A stretch of 64,000 nucleotides of DNA from Solea solea (lineage: Eukaryota > Chordata > Actinopteri > Pleuronectiformes > Soleidae). The stretch lies in the NCBI RefSeq assembly GCF_958295425.1, contig NC_081138.1, positions 4,819,802-4,883,801 of the forward strand. Reading direction: 5' to 3'. Shown piece by piece: positions 3,716 to 34,700 of the stretch (within the stretch, counting starts at the first letter, position 1; every line of letters begins with the position of its first letter). The translations under genes were made by a program, and so were the position numbers. The notes under the pieces were generated by a model, which saw only the letters and a list, made by a program, of their open reading frames with translations, searched no databases and was not told the origin of the DNA.

Positions 3716-4949
3716 CTGCACAGCTCGTCCCATGACCCTCATGTGGAGGATAAAGTGGTAGAAGATGAATGGATGGATGGATGGACGGACATTTAAAATA
3801 GAAAACTGTTCCCAGGCATGGCTATGCCAAACAATTCCACAGAAGGGCAGTGTTGTATCAACTTTTAACAGTTCATACCACAGGTACTTAAATAAATGCA
3901 CGTGTGAATGATGGTAAACTCAGGCCAGATTCCCTGAACTGTTGTTGCGATGCTGCTGTGGATGGAAAGACACAGCAGCACGTTTTTTTATGTTTCCATT
4001 TTATTGTTTTGCTAGATTATTTATCAGCACACACAGGGGCATTAAGTAATCTTTGGAGGTTAGTAATAAATCTAAATAATAAACTTTGGCCTTATGGCTG
4101 ATTTCTTATCAGCATTCTGTTGCGTGACTTGCTTTTTATTTAGCGCTTGGTAATCCACTGCTGCGTGATAAGCAGATTGGAGCTATTGTTTCCTGGTTTG
4201 TTTTTGTTTTTTGAGTTGTTTTTAATATCAAAGTTCATACACTAGCACGTTTTCTCTTCTTTTTTTTGTAACATAGACATGGGGTTTGTGGTAACAGAAC
4301 CATCTGTGAAATCATCAAATGGAATAAAAAGGAGCATATTCTGTCCAAGACAGGTTTGAAGATTACACTTACATGTTAACAAAAACATTTATTCAAGTGC
4401 AGTTTTGAGGCTAATGATTTAGTTTGATCTAAATTGTTGCCTCAGAATGAACAATTTAATAACTGTATAAACACTACAGGAGAAAGTGAACTTTCCGTAA
4501 ATCTCTGCAAGGGGGAACTCCAATTCTTACTCCCCCAATCTTACAGGTTTAGAAATAGATTTTAAATAATCCTGAATTCTGTAACTGAATCACCAACAAA
4601 ATCCAACTTCCTTGGTTCCTCACCTATATTTTCCAGAAATCACCTCCTCGATGAAGGTTATTATTAGACATAGGTCATTTATCTAATGGTGCATTTTACT
4701 TAAATCTTATTTAAGGGTTAGTTAAGGCTTACTTATGTTTTCACTCACCTCACACATCACAACTCAAGTGGTAATTAAGCGTTTTCCTAGGTCGAACACA
4801 ATCTGTCTGTGACGCTCGCCGTTCTGTAAATGAAAACTCGGATACACCCTCAGTTATGACCCTGCCGTCCAAAGGCCAAGGCAGCACACAGGGTTATTGA
4901 AACTGTAAAACCGAGTACAGTGTCCCAACGTCTCAGAGTTCGTTTGTAC

Positions 4950-7900: not shown

Positions 7901-10900
7901 TGTAGTTTGCACAGTTTTTCCTTGGGCTACAGTAGCTAAGACATTTGTTTTTAGGTTTTACCACTTACTAACATGTGTCAAACTTTTACAACACAACCTA
8001 CATTACTCCAAACTAATAAATTATATAAAGAAGATATACAAGGTGCTTTTTTTTTTCATACCTACCATAAGTAACTGAGGTTTAGAAGAACAAACGTATG
8101 TTTTTACTGTGAGTTGTAAAGGACTTTCAGTAAATATAAAAAAAATGTGTATAAATATGTAAAAATATAATTTTTGTTTTTTTACAGATCCTGCCGTTAT
8201 ATAAGGAGCTACATGCTTATGTGAGGGCCAAGCTTATGGAGGTCTACCCGGGACACATTGATCCAAAAGGACCTCTGCCGGCCCACCTGCTGGGTATGTT
8301 AAGAATAACGATCATGTTATTGTTATTATTACAGATATCTGAGTGGAAATATTTAAACCTGCCGATGTTAGTGGGGAGTTTAGGACCGGAGGTGACTTTC
8401 ACTGCCATGAAATATCAAGTTTCAGAAAGTAACATATACAGGAACAGAGAAGTACTTCCTCTCAGAGAAACTTTCTGGGAACACAAATTAATAAAAAGTC
8501 TAAAAGAGGAAGATTAAAAAGAAAAAAAAGCAGAACACAACCAGAATCAGGGAAACCATAACCACTTAATGCCTAACCCTAGCAATTTAATTTAATTAAA
8601 TTTAATTTACTTTAAAGAGCAGCCACATAACAGCAAGTCTTGTCAATCTATTATGTGTGTGTGCACTTAAAAACAGATGGGTAAAAGTAACAGCCATACA
8701 ATATCGCACAATAAAAACAACAACACATGAAAATAAAAATCAAATAATGTACAATAGAGCATAGGCATCATTTCACATCACAATGACCTTTTAAATGTTT
8801 GACTTAAGGTAAAGAAAAGCAGACCGAAAGCTTATAAATTGAGATTTAGATATATTTTATGTGAATTTATTGTGTTTTCATGATTTCATATGGACATATT
8901 TGATTGTTTAAAAGTAACAGTACACAGGAGAACAATTTACTTTCTCCAAAATACCCTTTGAAACGACACACATCTGACTCGGAGTCAAGCGACCACCTAA
9001 GAGTCTCGTTAAAATGAAGGATGATATTTGTGTCGTTTGTTCAGGTGACATGTGGGGAAGATTCTGGACCAACCTGTACCCTCTGTGCATCCCCTACCCG
9101 GACAAAACGGACATCGATGTCAGCAAAACCATGCTTGAGAAGGTGCAGTGATTGTGCTATAGCAAATCCTCTGAAATCATCTACAATATCTCCGCCTACA
9201 TTTTTTTAAATTTTGTTTTTTAGGGTTGGACCGAGCGTCGTCTTTTCGATGAAGCAGAGATTTTCTTCACGTCTGTGGGCCTGTATGAGATGTTCGAAAA
9301 CTTCTGGAATAATTCCATGCTGGTTAAGCCCAACGATGGACGCAAGGTGGTCTGTCACCCCACGGCCTGGGACATGGGAAACAGGAAGGACTTCAGGTAG
9401 CGCACTGACTTTGACAATCACTTGGAAATTCAGAGGCAACAACAACATTGAGCAAGTAAAGCAAGACAGCCTTGAACAGATTTGAGTATGGTTCCAGGAA
9501 TTAACTCTACCAGGATTAAACATTAGCTTGTTTACAGACAAACAAAAGCAGACAAATATCATTCATTATAACCACAGAGCCATTGCTATAGGCAAGGCAA
9601 GGCAAGGCAAGGCAACTCAATGTGCTTTACATGAAACAAACATTTAACAGTAAGAATTGGAGAAACAAAAACAATTTAGTAATAAAAATAAAAACTATTG
9701 AATAAAAACAATTTAGAAATAAAAACAAGTTATAGTTGAAATCCCAATCGATAGGAGAACATGTTATTGCACAGGCTGCGCTAGTTTCAAAGTTAGCTCC
9801 ACGGAAAAGCCGTTGTGGTCATTCCATTCCATGAGATTAGCAGATTATTTCCGAGGGAGTTTGTGTCTTGTGTTCATGTTCATTAGACAGACAATAATAT
9901 TATGTGTCATCTTCAGAATTGGAGGTGCACGTACGTGCCTGACTTGATGTTGCCTCTGTTCTATTTGGCCAAGTATCATCAAGAAAATTTCCTTCAACTA
10001 AACTACGGAGAAAAGTTACGCACTGCAGCTTTAATGATCATACTAAAAGAGAATGTTTTCATTGACAAATTAGCTCCATGTTTATCCATATCATCATCAG
10101 TATCCATGCTTTCTTGCAGTCGTACATAGATTCCTTTAAGCAGAGTAAATCCACATGTAACATGTACCCATATTGACAGGTAAGGGTTTAAAAAAGGCTT
10201 GGTACTCTCTCAGTAGTTCTAGAATTCAGGGATGCCCACCTATTTTATCTGTCCCTCCTCTACAGAACAATAATAATAATGTTTTCTCATAGTGACCTGA
10301 CAGAGTTCTTCCCTTTGGGATGTTTAACTAAAATGAAAAAAAATGACGTGATTTATTTGGATGTATGTTTTATGCTGCACTTACAAAAGTCATTTGATTG
10401 GAAATCAGTACATCATTATGAGCTTGCCGGAACAATTGAGTTGATCAGTAATGTTTTCCTTCTCGTAAAGATAACCAAAGTTTCAGTGGTGTCAAACATT
10501 AATCCATAAACCCAGCACACTTTAAGAGGTTTCAGCGTCTACTGTGATGTTTGTCCAATCCAAAGAGTTCAAATGTCGGGTTTCACGGCTCTGTCAGACC
10601 TCAGTTCATGCTAAAATGACTGTATGAAGCAATTTTTTTACCTCTCTGCTTTGTCAAGGATTTCATTAGTTTGATCAGCTTGTGCTTTGCTGTTTGTGAT
10701 TCACCGGGAACAGTGTGACGCGTGTTTTACTGCTGCAGCACATCTGATACGATATCGTGTCACGTTTGTGTCAGGCGACACAAGTGCTGACACTGACGCT
10801 CTCTCGTGTGATATCTGCAGGATCAAGATGTGCACGAAGGTCAACATGGAGGACTTTCTCACCGTGCACCACGAGATGGGCCACAACCAGTACCAGATGG

Positions 10901-11761
10901 CTTACAGAAACCTGTCCTACCTCCTGAGGGACGGAGCCAATGAGGGTTTCCACGAAGCCGTCGGGGAAATCATGTCCCTCTCTGCTGCAACTCCCAAACA
11001 CCTGAAGAGCCTGGAACTTCTGCCTCCAGACTTCACGGATGATAATGGTACTACTGATGTACACTGACCACTGTCCTACCACAGAAACCTTGGTTCTCCA
11101 AAACATTAAAGGTCCACATTTGATGGGTTTACTGGCCCAAAGTGGATATACTACCCCTAAGTGTGTTTGTAAAAGTGTATAATCACTTTATTGTGTTTTC
11201 ATAGCCTTAGAATTAGCCTTTATATGTTCTTAGGAAAGGCTTTTGCTTTTACGATTGGCCACAAACCTGGACCGATGTGTGTTTTGTGCTTCCAAGCAGA
11301 AGCTTGGTACACAAACAAGGACGAACGCATAAACCTGATAAACAGATTACTCGGATGCAGAGAAGACAAAAAAAGTCCAGTTCATAATTCAAAACACTTG
11401 GGCAGGTGGGCAGGCAAGGTCAAGAACAGGAAGGCAGTCAAAAACCAGGCAAAGGCAGGGCAAACATCTCAAAAGTACAAAGTGAGACAAAGATTAACAG
11501 GCAATCACTGGGAAGAACACGACAGAGAAAGCAGCGCCCAATAGAGCAACAAGGTTGCACAGGTTGACCAGGTGAAAGGAACAGGAAGTAGGCGTGGCTA
11601 GGTAAATGGAGGGGAAAAACTAAACAAAGACCAGAAACAGGAAGTGGAAGAAAAAGGATTTTAACGTACTTTCACTACTCTCTCCTGTGCAAAGGCCACC
11701 GTAGTTTCCCGCTGCTGTAGGTTGCACTCTACAGTCTCACCAGTAGATGTCAGTAATTCTT

Positions 11762-11848
<87 letters not shown>

Positions 11849-14800
11849 ACATTTACTCAGCATCTAGATTTGACCTTCGGCAAGTGTACTTATTGTACTG
11901 TTATACCTTCGTGAAACCACATAATGAGCCATAACATGGCCTTCCTTCACTGAAATATCCCAGGAGGAATATTCCCCTGTAAAATAAAGTATAGCATATT
12001 TCTAAAATGTCCACAAACAGACAACTCTCACTCTGAGTGTGATCGGTTCCCTTTGGCCTCTTTGTCTTTTAGAAACGGAGATCAACTTCCTGCTGAAGCA
12101 GGCGCTCACCATTGTGGCCACGCTGCCCTTCACTTACATGCTGGAGGACTGGAGGTGGCGGGTGTTTGCAGGACACATCCCCAAGGATGAATGGATGAAG
12201 CAGTGGTGGGAGATGAAGTGAGTAACGTGTCTGTAAATGTACGATATGCAGCAATTTTGGAGGTAAAAGTATCACCGTAATCAAATATGGTCGTCTGTCG
12301 TGGTACTGTGGACGTAATGAGGTTTTCAAGGCCCAAATGATGGACTATATATACTGTATACTACCATGCCACACAAGTGGGTTGTGGAAGGTCATTAACT
12401 ATAAATAAATACATGTATTTTTAATTTTTAGCTTTGTAATTAACGTCTAAATTGCTCAAAGGAAAGGAACGAAGGAAAGGATCTTTATTGTCATTATACG
12501 ACCAATAAACGTGAAATGATCCGTGTGTTGATAAGAGTCATGGTTTAAGGTTTGGGTGTGGGCCACAGAGGATTTTCAGATTTCAAAATAAAGGTATCCC
12601 ACCATCTTCTGACTGAATGTTGCCTTGTTTTGTCAAAGTCACACGAGCATCTACGCTAGTTTGTGTCCAATTAAGTAAACGGAAGCAAAAGTTATTCAAC
12701 GACCAACCATTATTTGGTGTGTGTTAGTCTTAAGTCGGGTTTTATTCAGACTCAGTGAATGCTGACTCTCTGTTACCATCACAGGAGGGAGATGGTGGGG
12801 GTGATGGAGCCGGTGCCTAGAGATGAGACTTACTGTGATCCTCCTGCTCTGTTCCATGTATCGGGAGATTATTCTTTCATCAGGTAACACACCACCCTCT
12901 CAGAAAAGCAGGAAATCCACATATAACCCACGATGAAATATTGTATATGTGTATTTGTATGCTCCACAGATACTTCACGAGAACCATCTACCAGTTTCAG
13001 TTCCAAAAAGCGCTCTGTGACGCAGCGGATCACAAGGAGGAATTATTTAAATGTGACATAACGGGTAACAAAGTGGCAGGAACCAAACTGAGGTATGAAC
13101 AACTTCCTGTGCCTCTTTGATGTCTGTTTCGTTGTTGTTGTCGTCCATGTTCCCACATGAAATCAGCAGTCGTAAAATGTCTTGTGTTGACAGAAAGTAG
13201 AAAATATTAACATTTAAGAAGCTGGAAAATGTCACAAAGTAGAAAATAGTCACATTTAAGAAGCTAAAAAATGACAGAAAATATTCACATTTAAGAAACT
13301 GGAAAATGTCACAAAGTAGAAAATATTCACATTTAAGAAGCTGAAAAATGTCACAAAGTAGAAAATGTTCACATTTAGAAGCTGAAAAATGACAGAGTAG
13401 AAAATATTCACATTAAGAAGCTGGAAAATGTCACAAAGTAGAAAATATTCAAATTTAAGAAGCTGAAAAATGTCACAAAGTAGAAAATGTTCACATTTAA
13501 GAAGCTAAAAAATGTCAGAAAGTAGAAAATAATCACTTTTAAGAAGCTGACAAATGACAGAAAGTAGAAAATATTGACATTTAAGAAGCTGAAAAATGAC
13601 AGAAACTAGAAAATATTCACATTTAAAAAGCTGAAAAATGAAAGAAAGTATAAAATATTGACATTTAAGGAGCTGAAAAATGTCTGTTTTGGTGTCAGCG
13701 CCATTATCATCGTTCATCTTTTCTGCTATAGGAATATGTTAGAGCTGGGAAGGTCCCAGTCCTGGACTAAGGCTTTGGAAACAATATCCGGTGATACCAG
13801 AATGGATGCCAAACCCTTGTTGAATTATTTTCAAAAACTGCACGACTGGCTGAAGGTAGACAACCGGAAACACAACAGGAATGTGGGTTGGGAGCCAGGA
13901 ACTGCTCCAAGTGAGTGTAAATGATAATTACCTCAATAAATAATCCTTTAAATAAATTTCCTTACGGTCACACTATACAAGCACTAGTTTGAATCAGTCA
14001 TGAAATCCCGAATAATGTCAATTCTTTTCAGGACGTGAAAAATAACAGTCGAGGTTTTCATGTCAAAATGTTTATATAAGAAAATCTGTTTTTAATATAC
14101 ATCGTTTGATTTGCTTTACAGGTTCAAATGCTATCAAAGTAAGAATCAGTTTGAAGGCTGCCATGGGCGATAATGCAGTAAGTATTAATAAGTATTTTGC
14201 AGCTTTTCATTTGAACTGCATATCACGGCATATATTAATGAACTGAAATGGTTTGTTTTTTTCAGTATTCCTGGAATAACAATGAGATGTACTTGTTCAA
14301 GAGCAACATTGCATACGCTCTGAGGCAGTACTACAGCGAAAAGAACGAGATTCTTCCCTTCACGTCAGTATTAACTGCGTCAAACTGGCAATACGAAAGA
14401 AAAAGAATGCCATGCTTTGTATTCACATCTGTTAAAGGGCTTTTCTCTTTTTCTAACCTGCAGATCAGAGAACATCGTCGTCGATGATGAGACGCCCAGA
14501 ATCTCCTTCTACGTCACAGCCAAAAACCCATTAAGTCCCTTACAGGACATCCCAAAGAATGACTTGGAGGCTGCAATAAGGTGAAATGGCGGCTTCATTA
14601 CGTTGGTGAAGAAACATGATTAGGATTTTCGATTATTACTCCACCATTTTGTAGTCTCAACCAAGTGCCATCTTGGTTTGTTCATTTGGAGAGAGAGGGG
14701 GTGGAGCTGGGGGGTGGAGGAGGGCTCAAAGACCAGCAGGTCGTCATGACATCCATTATCAATCACACCACAGTCACGCCCTAAAGATAATCTTCTACTT

Positions 14801-15073
14801 CACTCTGAATAGACGTCACGCTTGACTGAGACCATAAACTCCTCAGAAAAATTGATGTTTACAGACAGAAGCTGCAATGAAACGGGATCCTCTGATGTTG
14901 TTTATCTACACCCAGGGCCGGCCCAAGCTTTTATGGGGCCCTAAGCTGAATTTGATTTTGGGGGGCACCCTTCCCACCACCTCGGACTATTATTGATCCC
15001 AATGTCACACTTTAAATTGCATTATTTATTTGTTTCTCACATTTTGAGGGCAGTGAAATCACAAAAGTAGTTT

Positions 15074-15165
<92 letters not shown>

Positions 15166-16043
15166 TAATAAAACCAAATAACTTGAGATGAAGAATATTT
15201 AGATATCTGATGTCTAGATTTCTTTAGAAAAAATGTTGTGTTTTTTTTCTTTACACACTTCTGGGGGGCCCCTGGTGATCACGTGGCCCCAAGCAGCCGC
15301 TAACCCCTTGGGCCGGCTCTGTCTACGCCATCAGGTTTCACCTTGTTATTCGTCGTGGACTCAAAATGTGGCGAATGTGAAATCTTTACATTATCGAATC
15401 TTTTAGCCCTTTTAGCCCCTGGGGTGCCCCAAACAAAGTATGGGCACCCCTGTCATATGGGCTTCTACTGCGCCTTAGCGGACCAGGTCCTCTGAGGAAT
15501 TCAACCCCTAGATGGGACACAGCATAGTGAACCATGCGATATACAGGATTTTTGGATTGTATTGAATTTTACATTTCTTTTTAATCTGTCTGATATCAGA
15601 TCCAGCGATTTTGACCAACCGATACTGAGTATCATATCGGCTCATGCCATTTTGATATCGATCCCAGGTTAAGCCGAGGCAGAATCAACGACGCCTTCCA
15701 ATTGGACGACTGGACACTGGAGTTCGTGGGTATCCCGGCAACACTGGCTCCTCCTGTGGAGCAGCCCGTGGAGGTGTGGCTTGTGGTGTTCGGCGTGGTC
15801 ATGGGAGTCGTCGTGCTAATGGGCGTCTATCTGATCGTCTCCGGCATCCGACAGCGCAAGGGGTGAGTTTGGCATCGAGGCATCTTTTTTTTTTTTTTAT
15901 GCGATCAATTATTGACGCATTGTTTTCCTTCATGTGTTTGCAGGAAAAAAAGGTCGGGCGTCGAGAATCCCTACGACACATCCATCGATGGGCAGACTAA
16001 CAAAGCCTTTGAGGACAGTGAAGGGGAACAGACGGGATTCTGA
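4950..16043 (+). CDS. ace2: Angiotensin-converting enzyme 2 (ACE2), complete, 18 coding exons
   Basis: Type I membrane zinc carboxypeptidase with a C-terminal collectrin-like domain; the family trims angiotensin II and supports neutral amino-acid transporters at apical membranes. Exons: 4950-5165, 5276-5434, 5540-5633, 6404-6547, 7630-7745, 8188-8293, 9045-9142, 9224-9396, 10821-11047, 12073-12217, 12785-12883, 12970-13092, 13732-13910, 14122-14177, 14266-14363, 14464-14580, 15668-15862, 15944-16043. All junctions are GT-AG and in phase, giving about 814 aa (human 805); many exon lengths equal the human ones (159, 94, 144, 106, 98, 227, 145, 99, 123). Seen: signal peptide, [12 protein letters not shown] motif, zinc site HEMGH at residues 386-390 (10870-10884), third ligand E414 in NEGFHE, transmembrane segment about 753-775, ENPY motif, and C-terminus QTGF like a PDZ ligand. 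Start: ATG at 4950 is the first in frame; ATG 4977 has the better -3 base and gives a shorter signal peptide, so the mature protein is unaffected. Confidence 0.97.
5816..5960 (+). mobile_element. hAT-like MITE family B, truncated copy in ace2 intron 3
   Basis: Begins with AGAGCTGAAACAATTACTCG and carries the internal AATCGAT-type and GTGAATATTTTCTGG blocks found in the full-length family B copy at 23444-23820. The second terminus is missing. Confidence 0.6.
9592..9740 (+). repeat. SINE-like fragment in ace2 intron 8
   Basis: Starts with tandem GGCAA units followed by CTCAATGTGCTTTACATG, the typical head of an abundant teleost interspersed repeat. The body is truncated. Confidence 0.45.
11765..11845. 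repeat. (TA)n microsatellite, about 40 units, ace2 intron 9
   Basis: Uninterrupted alternating TA for about 80 bases. Likely length-polymorphic and prone to assembly error. Confidence 0.95.
13190..13682. repeat. 42-bp minisatellite filling ace2 intron 12
   Basis: About 12 head-to-tail copies of a unit with GTAGAAAATATTCACATTTA then AGAAGCTGAAAAATGTCACA, usually 41-42 bp long. It ends about 50 bp before the exon 13 acceptor. The unit matches an internal segment of the family B MITE at about 23670-23710, so the array looks like expansion of part of an inserted MITE. The length, a multiple of 3, creates repetitive false open frames on the minus strand. Confidence 0.9.
14913..15321. mobile_element. 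hAT-like MITE family A with 8-bp target duplication, ace2 intron 16
   Basis: Terminal inverted repeats CAGGGCCGGCCC at the left and GGGCCGGCTCTG at the right, the CAG...CTG ends expected of hAT elements. It is flanked by TCTACACC (14905-14912) and TCTACGCC (15322-15329), an 8-bp duplication with one mismatch. It has no coding capacity. An internal (AGT)n tract lies at 15074-15165. Confidence 0.85.
15074..15165. repeat. (AGT)n microsatellite, about 30 units, inside MITE A
   Basis: Perfect AGT triplet run inside the transposon at 14913-15321; the related copy near 20 kb carries a TA-rich tract at the corresponding place. Confidence 0.95.
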
Positions 16044-18576: not shown

Positions 18577-20245
18577 TCACTGTGGTTGAATGACAAAGAG
18601 GAACGTGTTCTCGGCTGTCGGTCCGTCCACTGTTTCGATCGTTACCCGATCGCTAGCGGTTTCCGTGTTGACGATCTTAATGAACCACCCGCTGTGCAGC
18701 GCCGACTCAAACGTCCTCTGGTGCAATCTGTCCGACTTCATGTAGAAGACATAAGCGAGTTTGGTCTTGTCGCTCATGGAAATATGCTGCAGCATCTGCT
18801 TTGAGCACGTCTACAACAACAAAGAGTGGATTACTTTCAAGTGTCAATTTTTTTTTTTATATAATGGACATCAATTTAACATCACTTGACTTTGACTTTC
18901 CTGAAACCACCACACAATGTCTATAGGACATTGGCGGTATTGGAGATGGGCCAGCCTCATGCTGTGTTTCGCACCGCGGGATCATTTTTGTACATTTTAT
19001 GACGCGACGGACGCTATTCGCTGTATTTTAAACAGAAGTAACAGGCATTTCTGTTCACCATCAACCAAAGCAGTGTTGCACTCTCTGTTGTGCAAACGTC
19101 TGCAGAGAAGAAACCGTCGTCTTGTGTGGTTTCACAACACCGTTGGTGGGTCGGGAAACCACACAGGACGACGGCCAATCACAACCGTCGCGTCTGTGCA
19201 TTGACTTTGTAAGTAAAGTTGTATATATAAACTTATATATATATATATATTTACATATACATATATATATATATATGTATATATAGATATATATGTATAT
19301 CTATATATAGATGTATATCTATATATAGATATATCTACCCACCTGAGCAAGAAGTACTCAAGATGTTTAAAATGGGACTGAATTTGCGAAATTTGGAAAT
19401 ACGTCACAGTTCAAAGTCTACTTTTTTTATGAACTTTATATCAATACTAAAAATGCAATGACTCAAACGCATCATAGGTTTGACAACACATATTTGCATG
19501 TTACCTCCACCTGAAGAGACACCCTCTGTTCGTCCTTGTTGCACCTGAGGAAGCTGTCAGAGTCAGTGAAGTTTAGGACCACTGGCATTCCACTGCCCAC
19601 CACCGCAGACGACTTGTAATGGTAGATTGTGATCTTCTCTGGAAAGGACACAAACAAAAGGAACGCAAAAGGAAACCAAATGGCGTCATACAATTCCACC
19701 TCTTGCAGGTGATTTTACTTTGAATGACAAACCTGGAGATGATGAAGGGTAGAGATATTGCCCGTCATGATGTCGGAGGTACTGGTAGGTGGCCACGTTT
19801 TCGATTGCAGCGTTTAACATGCTGGCGCATCTTAAACTGCCGCCTCCTCTTGCAACTGAAAGTTAAACATGGTAAATGTAAATGCTCTGTATTTATAGAG
19901 TGCTTTTCTCACACAACAGTTTTACCATTTAGCCATTCTGGGGCCCTAAATTGAATTTCATTTTATAGGTGGAAAAGGGGCTTATTGTTGATGCAAATGT
20001 AACAGCATAGATTGCAATAATTATAGTTGTGTTATTTACACTAAACCAGTGTCTTGTTTTTAAGCTTAGAGGGCAGTAAAATCACAAGTGGCCTATTGTT
20101 AATTTGCACGTTTGTATTCAAAGTGAAGCGCTCAGTGTGCTGATACTGAATTTACAAGTAAACCAGTTTTTAAACAGAAAACAACAATTGTCATTTTTCA
20201 AATCAATCAAAACTCAATAAATAAAATAAAATAGTATTAAAATAA

Positions 20246-20287
<42 letters not shown>

Positions 20288-23200
20288 TTATAATAAAAAT
20301 AAAAAAATAATAAAAAATACTCAACACTATTTAGATATGTATATGTATATATATGGAAAAAATTATTTCTTTAATATGTTAAAATGTGGGTTTTTTTCTC
20401 TGCACACTATTGGGGGCCCCAGGCAGCAGTTTAATTAGCTTTGGCCGGCTCTGCCCCCATTCATTCACAGCCACTAGGAGCAACATGAGGTTGCCCAGGA
20501 ATACATCACAACCTGGACCTGAGAAGTTGTGTTTTTGGCTGCAGCATAACTCAAAAAGTAAAGGGCAGATACGGAATATGTTCCCTGGGGATGTGGATTA
20601 TGGCCCAAGGAAGAAATCTGTTTGATTTGACTGTGGATGAATTAGACACAGTCGGAAACTGAACCGGCCTTGAGGGAGGTTTGTGTCTCTCAACCCTCAA
20701 CAGTGAATTGCCTCATGTCACTGTATTGATAAGGATGTAAATACCAGGAAAAGGGTTGAATTGTTAGAGGAGCAGAGGAGAGGAGTAAAACCTACTCACC
20801 AAGTGTCACTTTGCTGGATTCTGATATCATGACAACATCATGAAAGGTGCATCCTCTGCCCTGACATCCCTCACACACACCCCCGTCACTACAGCCTCTC
20901 CCCGTCACCGTTGAGATTCTGGTTTCCGTCATGGCAACGATGAACATATCCTGCTTCTCCCCATTCTCAGTTTCAGTTGGACAAACCTCCTCCTTCTCCT
21001 GCTCCTTCTCCTCCTCTACAGCCCCATCCTCCCTTCCCTTCCCTTCCTGCGCCTCATCCTCGCACTCCCTCTTCATCTCCATGGTGAAATGGAGAGAAGT
21101 GGAATCCTTGAAGAAGGGAAACAATATGTCTCCATTGCTGGGAGGCTGCTCCTTGATCTTCGTCTTGCTCGCCTTGCTCGCCTTGTGCACAGTCTGATGT
21201 GAACGGGCAGAAGAACACCGGCGTTGATTAGAAATGTCTTTTTGCGTCAACCACACGAGCACACGTGTACATGAAGACACATTATGGTCAGAAGGATCAT
21301 GGGGGACTTGCGTTTGCAACCTTATAGAACAGGTTTATGTGTATATGTTTAAAATAACATGACGTTTTAATTAATGTCACAAGCTTTGGGAAATAATTCA
21401 TTTAATTACTCTTGTCCTGATTTATACAGTGATTTGGGTCACTATGGTTTGCCATCTTTAAAAAGTGAGAGTCTGTATAGGAAGTTTGGGAAACAATGCT
21501 TTATGGTACAGGATAAAAGTTAATCAGGGTACTCGGAAAACTCTCTGGCCTTATGTTGTAGAGTTCATATTAATCATCGGAAAAAAGGTTATATTATATA
21601 ATTGCTGTTATTGTTGCTTGTGGAGTTAGACAACCAAAATATATAAAGTAATATGATATTTTACTGTTATTCATAATGATTTTATTGTTCTTTGGTGGCA
21701 GGTCAGTTTGACTCCAACTAAAAGGCCATTAAAGCTAACACAAAAGCAAAAGTTTGTCCAATTGTTAAATTTGTTGTTGTTTTTTTACCATGTAGTTCAA
21801 GATTCCAGAGTTATATTCGTCATATGCACCGTTACACTCATATGACACACAATGAAATGTAATCCTGAGTCGAGAAGTCAGAATTCTGAGATTAAAGTCA
21901 GAATTCTGAGAATAAAGTCCCATTCTGAGATTAAAGAAAAAGTCAGAATTCTGAGATCCATGTCAGAATTCTGAGATTAAAGAAAAAGTCAGAATTCTGA
22001 GATCCATGTCAGAATTCTGAGATTAAAGAAAATCAGAATTCAGAGATTACAGTCACATTCTGAGATTAAAGAATTCTGAGATTAAAGAAAAATTCAGAAT
22101 TCTGAGATTAATGTCAGAATTCTGAGATTAAAGAAAGTCAGAATTCAGAGATTACAGTCACATTCTGAGATTAAAGAATTCTGAGATTAAAGAAAAATTC
22201 AGAATTCTGAGATTAATGTCAGAATTCTGAGATTAAAGTCATATTCTGCGATTAAAGAATTTTCACTTTGAGATTAACGAAAAAAGTCTGAATTCTGAGA
22301 TTAAAATCACATTCTGAGATTAAAGAAAGTCAGAATTCTGAGATTACAGTCACATTCTGAGATTAAAGAATTCTGAGATTAAAGAAAAAGTCAGAATTCT
22401 GAGATAAATGAAAGTCAGAATTCTGAGATTAAAGTCAGAATTCTGAGATTAAAGTCAGAATTCCGAGATTAAAGAAATGTCAGAATTCTGAGATCAAAAT
22501 AAGAATTCTGAGATTAAAGTTGCACTCTGAGATTAAAGAAAATTTTGAATTCTGAGATTAAGACACATTCTGAGATGAAATAAAAAGTCTGATTTCTGAT
22601 CTTTTTTCTCAGAATTCATTTATATTGTCCATAGCTATAGTTAAATTAATAGTCTCTTCACTATGTAATGAAAACTGTTGTCTCACTTATGAATAAACCT
22701 TATGACACATAGTGTAGGTTAGAAATAAAAAAAAGTAAAAAGTCTAAAAACCATAAAAACCAAGGAAGCCTTGATGAACTCACCAGCATTGGATTCCCCT
22801 CAGCTAACATTTGTGCCAAGTCTTTAGGTGGGAGACCTCGCAGGTCCATGCCGTTTATCTGAATCAGTTTGTCTCCTTTCCTGCCATAGTTTGATACGTT
22901 GGAACCGTTATGAACGACACAATATTGAAATGGTAACACTTCATTTTGATTATACCCTAGCTAACCAGTAGTAACTAGCTGCCAGTAGATTATAATCCAG
23001 CCCCTACACAAAAGGACCTGTTGACTATAACTAGTATTTTTAATTAGTTATTAACCATCATTTCACTAGTTCTCTGTAGACTGTGTCCACGTACTTCTGC
23101 TTCGTCCTGTCGGCTGAAAAGTTAACAGGTTCATGTCACAGGAATGATCAATTCTATGTTGATTATCTGTGGACAATATGTTTATTATCATGTAAACATC

Positions 23201-25082
23201 AAATCTTAGATTACTTGACATTTAGTTGTTAATTTGTTGACAGTCATCAGAATATTAGTAGGGAAACTACACTTGAATGTAATGAATTACATGATCCTGA
23301 CACACACAATGGAAAACAGTAGAGAGTCAACAACGGACTATCACAATAAAGTGATACCATTTATATTTTACATTTCTGTAACTCGAGGAATCATTTCAAA
23401 TCTAATTCATGTTATATAAACTCAATGTTTATATTGTTGTGTTTAGAGCTGCAACTAACGATTATTTTCATAATCGATTAATCTGTCGATTATTTTCTCG
23501 ATTAATCGATGAATTGTTTGGTCCATAAAATATAAGAAAACCTTAAAAAATGTTGATTGGTGTTCGTCAAACCTGGAAATTATGATGTTCTCAAATGTCT
23601 TGTTTTGTCCACAAACCAAAATGATTGACTTTTAATGATTAATTTGTTATCCAGAGCAAAGAAATGAAGAAAATATTCATATTTAAGAAGCTTAAACAAT
23701 CAGAAATCTTGTTTTAATCATGAAAAAAGCTTCAAACCGAAGAATCGATTATCAAAATAGTTGTCGATTAATTTAGTAATCGATTAATAATCGATTCATC
23801 GATTCATCGGTTCAGCTCTAGTTGTGTTATATATAAACCCAATTTGTAGGTATGTCTTACTACAAAGTGGTGTTATAGAATGACACAGGCTGAGCAATAC
23901 AGAATATAAACATTTTTGCTTTGTCTTTATTTGTGTTCCCCTATTTTTTGGTTCTTAACCCTTTAAAACCTAAGCCTCAAAATGTCCGCCTGGACTATAT
24001 ATAAATACTTTGTTACTGTAGTTAAGTACAATATTCACGTATCCGTACTTTACTTTGTTTATATTAATATTTTTAGCAACTTTTACTTTTACTCCACTGC
24101 ATTTCCTCTAACTATCTTTGTTAATGTGTTACTACCAAATAAAATCGGAAGAAAAAAAATAGAAAGAGTTGGTATTATGGTCTGTATTTATATAGAGCTT
24201 TTCTAGTGTTGATGAGCTGCTTTACTCAATTTTGCAGGATTTGAACCCACAACCTTCCTTCACCCTACCACAGAGCCACCGTGACTCAATCCTAACTCCT
24301 CACCTTTTTAAAACTTTGACTTCTAAAACATTTTATATCAGAAAAGTACAGTAAATATCATATACTTCAAGACTTTTACTATAGTTTAATATTATAAAAA
24401 AGTCACTTCAACTTCATGTCAGTCATGTTCTGGTGAGATACTGCTTATTTACAAAGTGTATCAACAGTTTAAAATGAAGACTTGGATTTTACAGTTTTAC
24501 TTAGAAAAGTACAAGTACATGGACAAGCGATATTGGCACTGGCGATACGCTCGGTGTTAAAGGGTTAATTGACCAGACTTTTGATTGGAATCAAATCCTG
24601 GTCACTCGAGGGTCACTAACTGTTATTTCTTTTACATGTGGACTTAACTGTATGTCATTTCTGTTATGTTGTTTTTTGCTTATATCTTTTTGTCATTTAT
24701 GAACAAAAGGAACTATTCTGGAGACCCTACATTTCTACATCACGACACACTGTGTCATTACATTCATCTGCGTTACGGGCAGCGAGAACATGTGGACTAA
24801 ATCAAGTCAGTGTCTGATCAACAGTGACGGATACATACCTGACAAATATTTTTTCTCCACATGCTTTCGTGGGCTTCATCACCTTTTCCACTTCATAATG
24901 ATGCTTCCCTTCATGGATCTTGTGGATGACAATCACCCCACCGTGAACCCTGGAGTCCTGACAAGTAAAAAAAAAAAAAAACAACAGGTAAACAAACTAA
25001 CTATAAATGAGAAATATCATCCAATGCACAAAGTGATATAATTCCTGATGTGATAAATTGTATAACCCACTTCCAGATCCAT
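18577..25082 (-). CDS. il1fma: Teleost interleukin-1 family member with PDZ-like N-terminal segment
   Basis: Exons in transcript order: 25082-25071, 24957-24839, 22880-22784, 21193-20800, 19855-19733, 19638-19505, 18810-18577; phases agree throughout, giving about 370 aa. The start has an ideal context, ACCATGG, with only four coding codons in exon 1. No signal peptide is seen, as in many IL-1 cytokines. Residues about 44-80 read RKGDKLIQINGMDL...LTVHKA, like the second half of a PDZ domain. Exon 4 is Lys/Glu-rich, then Cys/Gly-rich. Residues about 208-370 give a beta-trefoil-sized domain with IL-1-like strands (MPVVLNFTDSDSFLRC, RVSLQVE) and a final-exon signature FESALHSGWFI, diverged from the family pattern. 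The 3' exons are the surest; the exon 3 acceptor has a weak pyrimidine tract. I match it to the fish-specific novel IL-1 family member from memory of that family. Confidence 0.8.
19225..19336. repeat. TA-rich microsatellite in IL-1 family gene intron
   Basis: Imperfect TATA/ATAC/ATAG dinucleotide runs of about 110 bases, 400 bases from the last exon of the minus-strand gene. Confidence 0.9.
19938..20453. mobile_element. hAT-like MITE family A, second copy (left end lost)
   Basis: Shares GGGGCCCTAAATTGAATTTC, TTTTTTCTCTGCACACTATT, GGGGGCCCC and the right terminus GGCCGGCTCTG with the copy at 14913-15321. The left terminus runs into another repeat (about 19870-19935, with TGTATTTATAGAGTGCTTTT). 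It holds a (TA)n tract at about 20248-20288 where copy 1 has (AGT)n. Confidence 0.7.
21872..22610. repeat. Minisatellite of AGAATTCTGAGATTAAAG units
   Basis: About 740 bases built from 18-24-bp variants of GTCAGAATTCTGAGATTAAA, in the intron between the PDZ-like exon and the acidic exon of the IL-1 family gene. Every unit carries the palindrome AGAATTCT. No spacers of constant length, so it is not a CRISPR array. Confidence 0.92.
23444..23820. mobile_element. hAT-like MITE family B, complete with perfect 8-bp target duplication
   Basis: Ends TAGAGCTGCAAC and GGTTCAGCTCTA are inverted repeats; GTTGTGTT flanks both sides (23436-23443 and 23821-23828). The 377-bp body is full of ATCGATTAAT-type palindromes. 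Non-coding. It lies in the intron between exons 2 and 3 of the IL-1 family gene. Related copies: 5816-5960 and 38560-38800, plus the ace2 intron 12 array. Confidence 0.88.
23990..24450. repeat. Interspersed fish repeat (copy 2) with nested insert
   Basis: Shares blocks with 3130-3715 (TTTTACTTTTACTCCACTGC, ACATTTTATATCAGAAAAGT). The shared sequence is interrupted at about 24174-24287 by a different repeat that starts GGTCTGTATTTATATAGAGC and ends ACCACAGAGCCACCGTGAC, so one element inserted into another. Confidence 0.6.
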
Positions 25083-26536: not shown

Positions 26537-26744
26537 CTAGCCGCAACTAGCAGTTAGCCGCAACTAGCAGTTAGCCGCAACTAGCAGTTAGCCGCAACTA
26601 GCAGTTAGCCGCAACTAGCAGTTAGCCGCAACTAGCAGTTAGCCGCAACTAGCAGTTAGCCGCAACTAGCAGTTAGCCGCAACTAGCAGTTAGCCGCAAC
26701 TAGCAGTTAGCCGCAACTAGCAGTTAGCCGCAACTAGCAGTTAG
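26537..26744. repeat. 17-bp minisatellite, about 12 near-perfect copies
   Basis: Unit CAGTTAGCCGCAACTAG repeated head to tail without spacers and with almost no divergence, which suggests recent expansion. It lies between the two divergent genes, about 1.5 kb upstream of the IL-1 family start codon. Confidence 0.95.
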
Positions 26745-28724
26745 TAGCTTCATCGCTGTCCCTTGTTGTTGCTCCTTACACTTTGATCCAGAGTCACAAG
26801 AAACAGAGACAACTGAACCTCCTTCATTACCAAGGCTGCAGCACGACATTTCACAAAGGCAGGAATTACTTTTCTGGGTGTATTTTCTCTGTGCTGTTAG
26901 GTGTGTAGCTGCTCTCCTTTTCCCCCACCCAGACATCACAGTGTGTGTGTTGTAAGCGTAAGCTTTGGACTGGTTATACCTGTAAATTACTGTAAAAATT
27001 ATTTAAAATTTATATAAAAAATATAATAATTTTAAAATGTTAAAAATTATTCTGATTCTATTATTAGAGGTAGTAGTTTCTGCACTACTTTGTTCATTTT
27101 CTTGTTCTTTTTTACACATCTTCAGAGCTAGCTGGTGGGACTGTGAGAAAAGTAATTTCATTTGCCTGGAAATGACAAATAAAAATATTGACTCTATGAA
27201 TCTATGTATGTTCTCTCTGTCTCTTCTGATTTAACTGCATATCATTGCATGCAGAAGTACTGGAAAAGTATCTAACATTTTGCCCTCTAATAGTAACTAA
27301 AAAAAAATGAATTCCTAAATTCAACAGTTCTGTTCTGATAATTTCATACAAAATGGGCATTATCTTGAAGTCTGTAAGTGGTCATTTTGAATGATAGTAA
27401 ATCAGTCTACTCAAATATAGCTCCATGTTGTCAACAAATGTTCACAACTCTGCAGATGGGCCTTTGTACATTAGTTAAATGTAAAAAAATTAGAGGCCAA
27501 TTAATACCATACGGACCAAAGAATAAATGATCTAATTTTTCCCCAGAATATTTTATTTTCAAAATATTTACAAAAACATACACAGCAACAACAGCATTTA
27601 ACTGTTTTACAATATTGTCTCATCCTCTTCTCCAGTGCTGGGAGTATTTGGGTGGAAGTGTACAAGTCATCATCTTATTTGACTTTGGGAATGAAACCAT
27701 GAATCAGGTTGGCCTGCAGCTGCTGTCTGCTGACAGCTTGTATTTTTAATTTTGATGCAAGGTGCAACCTATGTAAACATGATAACGTTAATTGGAGTTT
27801 CCAGTCTATGGCCACTTTAAGTTTGAAGCCTGACAAGCAACCCATGTAAGCGTTAGGCGATTAATAAAGTCTTTCAGTCTTTTTAAAATTCAAATTCATG
27901 ATTAATAATTTTGTGATACTTTTTCCCTTTGCATTACAGTATGTATTGTTTTGTATCTATTTTGTGTCTTGCTTATCCTTGAGCTATATAGAAGTACCTA
28001 TTCCTTTGTTTTATCCAACAGTGTCTTTGCATATAAGTGCATGGTGCAGCCCATGGCCAGGTGGAAAGGGAACTTGGCTTGTAACTGGAGGGTTGCCCCC
28101 ACCAGGTCAAAGGGCTGGGGTGCAAGGTACCCAACCTCCATTGCTCCCCAGGCGTATTTTTTTTCGTATTTTATTTTATTTTTGTTGGTGAACCATGAGT
28201 TTTGACTTTGTAGGAACCTCCGCAGCCTTGGTAGAAGTCTGTGCTCTCTTTGTATTGTTTTATCACTGCTATCAACATCTTTAATACTGAAAAAGTGCTA
28301 TAGTGCAACACTTTTCCTGTTTCAACACAGAGGTGGGTCGTGTGGCTAATTTTACACAAGCACACATGCTGGCTATTTCCAGATTTACCCCGTTGAGCGT
28401 GTGAACTCAAGCTAAATCTGTAGACGGTGAGGTGGATTGAGTTACATGACAGAAACATGCCACAGGTCTGCAGTGTGTCAGAGTGGACACACAGACCACG
28501 GTTCCACCACATGAGACGTCGAGAGCTCGACCTGGTACTGAAGATTCTCTGGTAGATTGTGCATGTGTGTGTGTTTGATGAAGGTATTGAGTAATGTTGA
28601 CTGACTACATACTAATAAACCTGGTTTGTGATTGAAATTTTAAATGAACTGCTTACCAAACAATATCTAGTGTATAATTTATAAAAATCTCAACTCCTGC
28701 TGTCCTGTCGGTCTGTGTTTTCAG

Positions 28725-31700
28725 ATGGTGACAGTCGATGTGTTGATAATTGGGGCTGGCCCTCATGCTCTGACCCTTGCGACCCTGCTCTCTCGTCCAA
28801 ACAACCCTGACCCAAACTCAGATGACTCACTGCTCTCCCCGTCCTGCTCCAACTCTCCAAGGTCTGAGCCACATCCTGGAACATCCAGCAACAGATGCTC
28901 CAGTAGCAAGAAGAAGAGGAGGCCAACAACTGGTATAACGTGCCTTATAAGACTTAATCCAGGAGCGAATTCTATATAGAGCTAAAGCAGTTTGTTGATA
29001 ATTGACAACAATGAATATAAATTGTGTGTGGAGAAAAAGACCACATTTTTGTGTTGCTCCTGAACACTTGCAGTCGCAGAAAGAGAAACGTTCCCATCAG
29101 GTATAGTCAAGACTCAAAATCTACTTGGAATTGTATAACCCTGAAATTTCAACACTCCAATTGTTGCTGTGTAGTCACTTCAGCTTGTGACATACAACGA
29201 AACAACTATGATGCAACCTGGACACATCCTCAGTGATGTTACCTGGAATCCTTGAGTGTTTCGGGTCTTTTAAACATCATACACTCTCGTCCAGGTGACC
29301 CAGCCGGGGGTGATCAAGCCCCGGCTTGTGTCCAGGTAGCGCTACCTCGCCCACTTACCTCTTCTCCTGATCCACAGCCACCTTGAAGCAACTTCTGCTG
29401 CTTCAGTGGCCTCCTTAATGGCCCTTAGCCTTCTGACTCCAGTGATGCCCAGCAATGTTATACCCAGATCCTGGGCCCTAGATGCATCCCTGAAGGTATC
29501 ACTGAGGTGGCGGTCCATCTCAGCTTTGGGTCAAGTGAGCTGACCACTACGCTTCTGTCCCAGGAGCTGTTTTACGAAACCAAATGGATTCACCAGAAAG
29601 GCTGTCCATTTCCTGGCTCTTTACTTCCACCTTCTCCTGTGCCGCTCGGCCCTCCACAAGGTCATGAGCTTCTTGCGGAGAATGCCCTCTCCTCCTCCCT
29701 CGCCTCCTTGAACTGCCGCTTCAGGTTCTAAAGTTCTTGCCTGAGCTTGTGGATCTTGTTTGCCCGGTTGTTCTTGGTGTAGGGGGGCCTCTCTGCTCTC
29801 TTCTCCTCCAGCCCAAATCTCTCAGCTGCTAGGCTGATGATGATGGTGGTCATGGTGTGGAGGCGGTGATTCGCCTTTCCCTTGGCAGTTGTCTCCAAGT
29901 TCTTGTCGGCATCAGCATCAAACAGGAGTCATTCCCTCTCCATGTTTGCCTGGGGCCACTTGACCCAACGATGTTCTGATGGTCTGCGTGGGTTTGGGGC
30001 TGGTGCCACCTGGAGGTTCTGGGCACTGTGGGTTGACTCTGGGCCTAGCTCCTCCTGTGTCTCACCAGGGAGAATCCCTGTGTGCTGACCTGCCTGCACC
30101 CTCCGCACATATCCTTCTTGGCAAGATCGGGCCGCTAACCCTGGTTCCCCGTTGCCTTCTCTCTCATAATAGTAATCACTTTTATTTCATATTGCGATCC
30201 TTGGTTTGAACTTCAGCAGATCGTCTTGACGACTGTACATGCACACATGCATTATAACATGTATGTGAATCACCTCAACGACCTCAATGAGGCCTCATTG
30301 TTCAGTCCATATGTCTTTACATTTGCGATGTGTCTGCAGAAAGGACACCGGAGGAACGACCAGCAGCGATACCAGTATCAAGGAGCCCTGTTTCCCCCCC
30401 ACTGAGTCTTCAAGTGGTAGATTCCTATGGAGAGTGGACCACTCTGTGGGAGAGCCAGTTCACAGCACTGAGCATCCCTCATCTGCGCTCACACGTACTG
30501 GTGCACACAGACCCTCTCAATAAGGTAGATTAACTCAAAGACACTGAGGAAGAAACAAAAAAAAGATTTTTACAGCATGAATATGAATACGTTTGTGTGT
30601 TTTCTTTGACAGAGAGCTCTGGAGGAGTTTGTTGTAAAGAGTGATCGTTCAGCAGAGCTTCACTGTCTCCCAGATCAGGTTTATATTCTGGACGAAAATG
30701 CATTTTTCAATGACATGCGACTTGGCAAGAAGGAGAAGAAACGGCTAAACATCACCTCGACACTTAAGAAGAGTTTATCCTTCAGTCTGCCAGGAACCAA
30801 ACTGAGTGTGGATTTCTTCAAAGATCAGGTTGGATATGTGCGTGTGTGGTCGTAATTTGGTTTAACTACTGCTATGTTTCATGTTATTTCTAGAGTAGAT
30901 TATTGGTAAATAAAAGGATGGACACTCGGGGCAGCTGGCAGAAGGATACTGATACTGTGTGTCTGTAAAGCGACGCCAAGGGCAGTATAACAACAGCAAC
31001 ATTATATACAAAGTAGCAAACAAAAGTTCGAGCAGTGAATTCTTCTGCTTACAAAAAAACCTGGTCGTTCAGCAGTTTAATGGGATAAACCGCATGTGCT
31101 GCCTCTGGATCCACAAATATAAATATTCTGTCATATCCTGTTTACAAGTAGTTTCCTGCAGATTTTCAAGCATGGAGGCGTTTGAAGAAGTATTCAGTTC
31201 ATTTAAAAGAACCTCTAAGAAGATGTTTAGAGTGTTAAAGACTCTCCCCTGCTACTACTGTTTTGCAGCCTTATTTATTCACTAAACCTTCGTTACCTCC
31301 CGCGTCACGTGAGATTACATCAACTTTGTACCACCTGTGTGGAAAGGTCACTAAGTTTCAAGATATACTGTAAGTGTCAAAGTTGTTTGGAAGGAGGAAG
31401 CGTTACTTATAACCACACAGAGTTCAACCATTTCACTGTGCACCGCACGAGAAGTAGCAAAAAACACAATCACATCGCTCAAGCAAGAGAGCCTATGTAG
31501 GCTCTTTTTAGATTTGACCAAATAATATGGAACAAAAACGGTTACAATTCTACATCCTGTCATTAACACATGACAGAGGAACTGAAAAGTTGTTGGTTTT
31601 TGTTTTTGTGTTGTTTGTCTCCAATGAGATGAAAACTGTTGAATAATCTTTCAAGCGGCATGAGAACCAGAAGTGTGGTCACTGCTTTATTTTTAGTTCT

Positions 31701-34700
31701 CTGACTTGATGAATCTGAACTTATAGGTGGAGAGATACAACCTGGACGGAATGCTGGTGAAGGGAACCGTGGAGCGCATCGTCCCCGTTATTGAGCCCAG
31801 GGAAGAAAAGACGGACTGTGTGAAGGAGGGTGACGTCGTGAGAGTGACGGACGGGGACAAGAAGAAGAGAGTGAAGTATTTTCAAGTCCAACTTCGAGAA
31901 GGCATCACCTTAAAAGCTCATCGGGTCGTTATGGCAACAGGACCGACCCGTGCCCCGATGGCAAACATCCCTCCATGGGTAAAAAGCATTGGCGAGAGCT
32001 ATCCAGAGGAGCGCTTGCAGCACACAGTGCACCTCATGCACTGTCTGTCAAATGCGAAGCACAAGGAGAGAGAGACTTTACTCCCTGAAGGCAAGTCAGA
32101 TCCAGGCCATAAATTGTTTTTGTCTAGGAATTATAAAGATAATGAACATTGCTATGCAAAAATAATATGATTGAGTATTACTTTGCTTTCACCTGAGGTG
32201 TCTGGGCTTCGGAAGACTCCCAGTCCCCACTGCAACACTCAGCAAGTTCTATGTGTGTCTAGAATTGTGTGTAGTGTGTGAGAGACGGCAGAGAGTAATG
32301 GTAGTTGGTGGAGGTCTGACCAGCGCTCATGTCGTCTCACTTGCCCTGCAGCGAGGTGCCAGCCATGTGACCTGGGTCATGAGGAAACACCTCCAGGTCT
32401 AGTGACAGTGTGAAACTGCATGTAGGCCAACCATTAAGATTTACTGCAACTCTACCTGTCGGCCCCCACCACTACACACGTCAGTCTTCACTGTTTTCCT
32501 CTACAGCTGAAACAGTTCGACGTGGGTGACGTGGAGAGCCTGGTGGGTCGTTACTCCCATGTGGAGCACGGCATCAAGATGGACGGCCAAGCGTACCTAC
32601 GGCAATTCTACGGCGAGCGGAGTCTTCACAAACGGCTGGCGATGATTCGCCAGGCAAGGAAAGGAGGGGCCGTCACACCAGAGGCCTACATCCACCTACA
32701 GCCATTCATACTGAAGGGACAGGTGGATGTGAGGACATACTGTCAGGTAACTGTGCATGGGTGTCCCAAAGCAGCTGAGCGTGTAGTGGACGAGATCAGA
32801 TGAGATGAGGCAAGACAAGGTGCTGTGAGCTATAAAGAGGCTAGAATAGATCATATGAAGTAGCGACAGTAGGTCACCTGAGGTCACGTGGGGTCAAATA
32901 GGTAGGTAGGTAATAAATGATGAGATGAGATATGATGAAATGAGATGAGGAAGACATTGAGATGAGACGAGGTGAGGAAGAAGCTGAGAATATATGAGAT
33001 GAGACCAGATGAAATGAGGAAGAAGTTGAGATGAGATGAGGTGAGGAAGAAGCTGAGATGAGATATGAAATGAGGAAGAAGTTGAGATGAGATAAGATGA
33101 GGAAGAACCAAATGACACAAGGTAAATTTAGGGACATGGTTTGGTTTGAGATGAGATGATAAAGTCAAAAGAAGATAAAAAAAAAAGTGAGCTGAGTTTA
33201 AACAAAATTAGCTATGATCCTAGTAAGTGAGGTAGATGAGTTTAAATTGTAATCTCAGATGAGATTGGGTCATATGAGGTCAAATGAAATTAGGTAATTG
33301 ATGAGATGAGGAAGAAGCCAAATGACACAGGCTGAGATGAGATGATGAAGTCAAAATGAGATGATCTCGATTTAAAAGAACAAAAGGGAGATGAGATTAT
33401 ACAAAATTAGCTATGACCATAGCAAATGTGTTAGATGAGATTAAGATGTAATTTCAGATGAGGTCAAATGAGATTATTTTATTGATGATGTCATGAGACA
33501 AGATGAGATGACTAAGAAGCCAAATGATAAGTACATTTTGGGACATGATTTGATGTGAGATTGTAGTGAATGAGGTAGATGGGATTAGGATATAGTTTCA
33601 AATGAAATTAGGTCAGATGAGGTCAAATGAGATTAGGTTATTGATGTGAGATAAAATTGATGTAATAAAAATGATGAAAAAAAAAAATTGAGATGAGATT
33701 AAACAAAACTAGCCATGACCCTAGTAAATGAGGTAGATGAGATTAAGATGTTATTTCAAATGAGATGATTCAAATGAGATTAGTTAATTAATGGTGAGAT
33801 TAGAGAAAAATTAGTTTTGAAGGGGACAAAATAAAGATAGGGTAAGCAAGATTAAGATGTCAGTTCAATTGAAAAGGCCAAATGAGATCAGATGATTTAA
33901 GATGATAACATAAGGTATATGAGATCAGATGACGCTTAATATAGATTAGATGTCAATTAAAAAGTTGATTGTGTAAAATGAGATGATGTTAGTGGCATGA
34001 TTTGAGGTGAGATTAGAGAATTGGGTCAAAATAACACAAAATAGGATGAGATCAGATATGAAATAGGTGGATCGGATTAAGACATTTCAAATGAGATCAG
34101 GACGAATCAGGTCAAATGAGATAATAAGGTAATTAATGTTGAGATGAGGTGGATACAATTTGATGTTGGTTAAACTAGCCAGTCAGCTAAGGATTATAAT
34201 CAGATGAGATCAGATTAAATCAGATGAGACTGATTAAATAGTTATGAGATGAGATGACTTTGTTAGATAGCAATTAGTTAATTAAAGGAGTTAAAGGACA
34301 TTATAAGAAGAGTGAAGACGTCAGATCTGGTCAAATGATGATCTGACGTAAAATCAGAATAATGTTAGGAGTGAAATGAGTTTAGACTGTCACAGTCAGA
34401 GGAGATGAGGTGATTATATCTGGGCTTGGGGTTGTTTGTTTGGGTGGGATAATACGATAATGTGAGATTCCATATGTGAGATGAGTCATAACTGTCCAGG
34501 TGAGTGAAGCCACCTGGTGCTACAAGAGCCAGGCCTGGAGTCTGTCCCTCAGCACCGGAGACCACTGGACTGGAGATATGATCTGGCTCGCCACTGGCTG
34601 CAAACTCGATGTGAACCAGGACCCGTTGCTTTCTGAAGTGATAAAGGATTTCCCAATTCAAGTGGGTAAACAATGTAAACAGCTGAAAATAGGTTTTGGT

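Follow-up and report, generated by a model that had tools for sequence, protein, structure and literature searches.

A conserved PDZ-like module in the pro-region of the IL-1 family cytokine Il1fma of Solea solea

The 64,000-nucleotide stretch of Solea solea DNA analysed here (the window; contig NC_081138.1, positions 4,819,802 to 4,883,801) carries on its minus strand, from position 25082 to 18577 of the window, the gene il1fma, which encodes an interleukin-1 (IL-1) family cytokine with a PDZ-like module in its pro-region. Re-read base by base, the gene comprises seven exons that join in phase into 370 codons and a stop codon, and all six introns have GT/AG borders. The translation of this exon model matches P0001, the Solea solea protein that NCBI predicts as "interleukin-1 family member A", at 100% identity over 100% of the length, and shares 40-55% identity with other proteins named il1fma or interleukin-1 family member A, orthology being judged by sequence identity without a tree. 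The seven coding exons equal in number those of lumpfish nIL-1F. From its identity and architecture, it is close to certain that the locus represents the fish cytokine nIL-1F/Il1fma, as an orthologue, in the common sole (Solea solea), in agreement with the family named in the initial annotation of this DNA. Its parts are the following:

25071..25082, minus strand: coding part of exon 1 (MDLE), with the ATG in an ACCATGG context and a GTGGGT donor
24839..24957, minus strand: exon 2, residues 5-44 (last codon split with exon 3), the beta2-beta3 hairpin, predicted by AlphaFold as strands 11-19 and 22-31
22784..22880, minus strand: exon 3, residues 44-76, with beta4, beta5 and helix alphaB (RKGDKLIQING...GNPML), invariant G46, D47, N53 and P62, and a Pfam PDZ match at 23-74
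20800..21193, minus strand: exon 4, with the module end (TVHK), conserved residues 98-120, acidic linker 121-157 and conserved residues 158-207 including four Cys, as delimited by regional conservation
20849..20893, minus strand: four-cysteine block C177-x5-C183-x2-C186-x4-C191, defined by a relaxed pattern and by alignment A2
19733..19855, minus strand: exon 5, with the thrombin-type motif LV[PSA]RG (L207 from exon 4; V208-A209-R210|G211, the R210-G211 codons at 19850-19845) and the start of the trefoil
19505..19638, minus strand: exon 6, IL-1 trefoil, matched by Pfam IL1
18577..18810, minus strand: exon 7, last part of the IL-1 trefoil, then the stop codon, with invariant F327-E328-S329 and W335

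The junction between exon 3 (22880-22784) and exon 4 (21193-20800) reads ...GNPML|TVHKA and lies at phase 0, as first described. Phase 0 is also found at the start of exon 2 and the end of exon 3, which together encode residues 5-76. These 216 nt could act as a cassette whose gain or skipping in frame is conceivable; an origin of this cassette by exon shuffling may be envisaged.

Several repeats accompany the gene. A 17-bp minisatellite (26538-26744, 12.2 copies, 100% match) lies about 1.5 kb upstream of the start codon, diverged AGAATTCTGAGATTAA-type repeats form an array of ~700 bp in intron 3 (21875-22599), and intron 2 contains an AT-rich segment with imperfect inverted repeats (23458-23809), perhaps the remnant of a small DNA transposon. 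Scanning the 5' region for bacterial promoters, which is uninformative for a fish gene, gave no match.

The C-terminal IL-1-type beta-trefoil expected from the initial reading is borne out by profile and structure alike. Pfam IL1 (PF00340) matches residues 249-338 with an E-value of 5.7e-7 and 29.7 bits, above the cut-off of 25, and AlphaFold models a trefoil at about residues 233-340 with fair confidence (block predicted local distance difference test, pLDDT, 76-95). The best Foldseek matches of the full-length model in the PDB are IL-38, chicken IL-1beta, IL-37 and IL-1Ra, IL-1 matches filling the list, and F327-E328-S329 and W335 are invariant within the trefoil. The function of this part is known from other fish: the last 169 amino acids of trout nIL-1F antagonise IL-1beta, and the grass carp nIL-1F trefoil does so by competing for the receptor (PMC4929537).

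The N-terminal module is termed PDZ-like and not a PDZ member because the Pfam PDZ score of the sole protein, 19.4 bits at full length (E 1.4e-3) and 22.9 bits for residues 1-92, does not reach the curated cut-off of 23.2. Two orthologues, P0022 and P0054, pass the PF00595 cut-off (26.1 and 27.7 bits), and the family is found at E<=0.05 in 44 of 54 orthologues, against 3 for the commonest family other than IL1 and PDZ, so that at the level of profile comparison the resemblance to PDZ is beyond chance. The profile search that had been proposed for this protein thus places IL1 above its cut-off and PDZ, in the sole, just under it. In two catfish genera and in Metynnis the Pfam PDZ signal is faint: P0134 and P0135 give no match at E<=1, P0133 and P0136 match at about 0.1, as does the smelt P0095, and P0136 matches PDZ_6 at 5e-3. 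A profile built from 29 N-termini retrieves the PDZ chains of MPP7, SNX27 and PSD-95, together with a designed helical-repeat protein and a ribosomal protein. Its best clean PDZ match (3e-4) is MPP7, of the MAGUK p55 type, whose PDZ domain belongs to a scaffold protein and not to a cytokine.

Conservation was assessed with 136 homologues (129 from the first two protein searches), 64 of which, picked by the author for near-full length and diversity, form alignment A2. A relaxed pattern for the GDKLIQIN block is present in 119 of the 129 and 125 of the 136, so the block suggested for comparison among other fish il1fma genes is widespread. Some database models start inside or after the PDZ-like region, and several of the homologues without the pattern are of this kind. 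In A2, G46, D47, N53 and P62 are invariant in the 63 of 64 rows bearing a letter there, and H16, H23, Y25 and V27 are also unvarying. Residues 7-80 have a mean column entropy of 1.28 bits and residues 233-340 one of 1.30, with 1.35 for 98-120 and 1.27 for 158-210, while the acidic linker and residues 81-97 reach 2.16 and 2.44 bits; across these 64 homologues the PDZ-like module is therefore conserved as strongly as the trefoil. It is found in two catfish genera and in Metynnis, an occurrence that spans a deep teleost split, and no gar, shark or coelacanth orthologue appears among the matches listed by the protein searches, one of which gave the best 120 of 152. Two Tetraodon models, P0101 and P0103, are without the second half of the PDZ-like region or the whole module and without the four-Cys pattern, through either loss or poor models.

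From the structural point of view, AlphaFold places in the full-length protein a core of strands 11-19, 22-31 and 48-52, helix 62-70 and strand 76-79 (block pLDDT 86-94, except 58 for residues 31-40), which recurs in a second model, made from the truncated whole homologue P0097 standing in for isolated residues 1-92; in both models block pLDDT is 84-94 with one loop at 58-60. In the prediction, residues ~10-80, which come mainly from exons 2-3, adopt the PDZ fold with strands beta2 to beta6 and helix alphaB, so that the initial impression that only the second half of a PDZ domain was clear has to be widened by the beta2-beta3 hairpin. Predicted to be missing are a clear first strand and helix alphaA, beta1 being absent from the full-length model and reduced to two bridged residues, 6-7, in that of P0097. 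With the latter as a query, 36 of the 50 best Foldseek rows are titled PDZ, and none matches at E<=0.001. The expectation of a PDZ-like N-terminus is thus upheld by prediction and structural matches, and no other fold emerged. That the likeness is coincidental or convergent, as the modest E-value of the full-length sole protein, the lack of a Foldseek match at that threshold and the two foreign proteins in the profile search might suggest, is very improbable: the frequency of PF00595 among the orthologues, the predominance of PDZ in both the profile search and the structure comparison, and a concordant published InterPro annotation (PMC7144542) all argue against it.

The missing first strand raises the matter of what completes the core. 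In the VIA-align comparison with the P0097 model, 39 of the 50 best rows have an aligned range reaching model residues 194-206, which places a downstream strand within the PDZ fold, and the rows include circularly permuted PDZ constructs (4amh, by title, and 2qbw and 3ch8, which we take to be such constructs). The strand in question, residues 186-197 of P0097, corresponds to about residues 191-202 of the sole protein, after the Cys block and before the thrombin-type motif; another candidate is strand 99-109 of the full-length model (block pLDDT 88 for 101-110). On the basis of these models, the pro-region might form one composite PDZ of the circularly permuted type, with its N-terminal core completed by a strand ~110 residues downstream. 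This arrangement is quite doubtful, but if true it would make the precursor a clamp that links partner binding to the freeing of an IL-1 antagonist by proteases of the clotting system. Another explanation gives the module an intramolecular role, as a latency or chaperone domain, which would pack with the later pro-region or the trefoil and keep the cytokine folded and inactive without an outside ligand. It is consistent with the lack of a clear first strand of its own, with the downstream strand and the permuted constructs, and with the conservation of block 158-210 at the level of the module. Coevolution was examined by mean-field direct coupling analysis of 127 rows (effective number 98) left from the 136 homologues after dropping 8 truncated or odd sequences and 1 of low coverage. 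Pairs joining residues 1-80 with 155-205 make up 4 of the top 30 (1.9 expected) and 7 of the top 60 (3.9 expected), a weak lean towards packing that is gone among the top 200 (14 vs 13.0), and pairs joining 1-80 with 98-120 number 1 of 30, 2 of 60 and 5 of 200 (0.9, 1.8 and 5.9 expected); the signal is too weak to tell which strand completes the PDZ core. Since residues 151-210 have a block pLDDT of only 44-52 in the full-length model and the predicted template modelling score is ~0.5 in both models, such a latency role is possible but on the whole unlikely.

Regarding peptide binding, G10-G11-V12 lies near the expected GLGF-type carboxylate-binding loop (residue 10 of P0071 aligns to profile position 13), and G10 is kept in 62 of 63 alignment rows. 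The invariant Pro62 occupies the position aligned to the helix-B histidine of PSD-95, where MPP7 likewise has Pro. By the PDZ ligand class rules this leans away from class I ligands, as judged from the aligned sequences. The idea that the module binds the C-terminus of its own protein was set aside; 100 of the 136 homologues end in Lys or Thr. The Pro at the helix-B position, together with the Pfam score under the cut-off and the lack of a clear beta1 and of alphaA, could also mean that the module is a degenerate PDZ that keeps the long pro-region soluble or helps it to fold and binds no peptides. We consider this improbable, as its invariant residues and trefoil-level conservation would exceed the needs of a spacer.

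Downstream of the module, the acidic, Cys-rich linker originally described is found as a variable acidic linker and a Cys-containing pro-region. A conserved Asp that might serve as a caspase site was looked for: in residues 121-157 the two best filled Asp columns hold Asp in 37 of 62 and 35 of 61 rows, D158 is Asp in 47 of 63, and D195 is Asp in 56 of 64 and Glu in the remaining 8. A relaxed form of the block C-x5-C-x2-C-x4-C matches 119 of the 129 and 124 of the 136 homologues, its four Cys being kept in 63/64, 62/62, 63/63 and 64/64 rows of A2; that it binds metal is a guess. Comparison of the middle region with the IL-1 propeptide, using six orthologue fragments at E<=5, gave one weak, unrelated match only, and NCBIfam, a library built for bacteria and archaea, gave no match for three orthologues at E<=0.1. 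Ahead of the trefoil, the thrombin-type motif LV[PSA]RG is present in 112 of the 136 homologues (68 LVPRG, 33 LVSRG and 11 LVARG, the last being the sole variant), with R210 and G211 each retained in 61 of 64 rows.

These elements can be joined in a docking-and-release reading, which we hold tentatively, at slightly less than an even chance. The PDZ-like module would act as a functional pro-domain and dock the latent precursor to a partner in the cell, whether through the tail of a membrane-linked or cytoskeletal protein or through an internal motif. A cut near R210|G211 (thrombin-type, caspase-1 being also predicted) would then free the antagonistic trefoil in tissue damage or inflammation. 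If so, the trefoil-like conservation of the pro-domain would suggest that an IL-1 antagonist is retained inside fish cells in a form bound to a partner. PDZ domains also occur in the cytokine precursor IL-16, whose cytokine part is itself a PDZ, without an IL-1 trefoil. Among the mammalian cytokines, IL-1beta is least conserved in its pro-domain, and the pro-domain of IL-1alpha, which is highly conserved and binds HAX-1, is the exception (PMC5861070). Pro-IL-1alpha thus resembles sole Il1fma as an IL-1 precursor with a conserved pro-domain, but its pro-domain is of another kind, with a nuclear localisation sequence, and it is an agonist and not an antagonist. Mammalian IL-1alpha has a conserved PRS site at which thrombin activates it (PMC6476404); by analogy, this activation may extend to nIL-1F, in which case the thrombin-type motif would link release of the antagonist to clotting.

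The sole gene belongs to the same family as the teleost nIL-1F/nIL-1Fm/il1fma genes of lumpfish, trout, grass carp and other species, with no difference in kind. Since a PDZ domain (IPR001478), along with seven coding exons, has already been reported in lumpfish nIL-1F (PMC7144542), the combination of PDZ and IL-1 trefoil is known and not new. The initial interpretation is partly supported: the il1fma identity, PDZ-like fold, linker and trefoil stand, and tethering or scaffolding of the precursor by the module is a possible role. The discussion of the lumpfish paper, in its available text, does not treat the PDZ domain (PMC7144542), and no role for it was found in the literature searched, outside which most subscription papers fall. 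Within that literature, nIL-1F and thrombin are connected by predicted sites only, caspase-1 and thrombin sites being predicted in lumpfish (PMC7144542) and trout (PMC4929537), as far as the available texts go. The annotation is ordinary and its architecture in print, and it is the strongly conserved module that merits experiment.

Elsewhere in the window, the plus strand carries an ACE2-like gene with Peptidase_M2 and Collectrin matches (4860-15863), a pirin gene (39039-45097) and a gene with a PDGF/VEGF domain (59801-60145). In humans, ACE2, PIR and VEGFD presumably lie close together on Xp22, apart from the IL-1 cluster, which is on chromosome 2. Open stretches at 28671-32800 on the plus strand, three pieces of which were compared with Pfam without a match at E<=0.01, are taken to resemble an OSGIN-kind flavin adenine dinucleotide-dependent oxidoreductase. 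Purine-rich GATGA-type repeats (32919-33107) lie within a region of strong GC skew (0.33 in 32001-34000).
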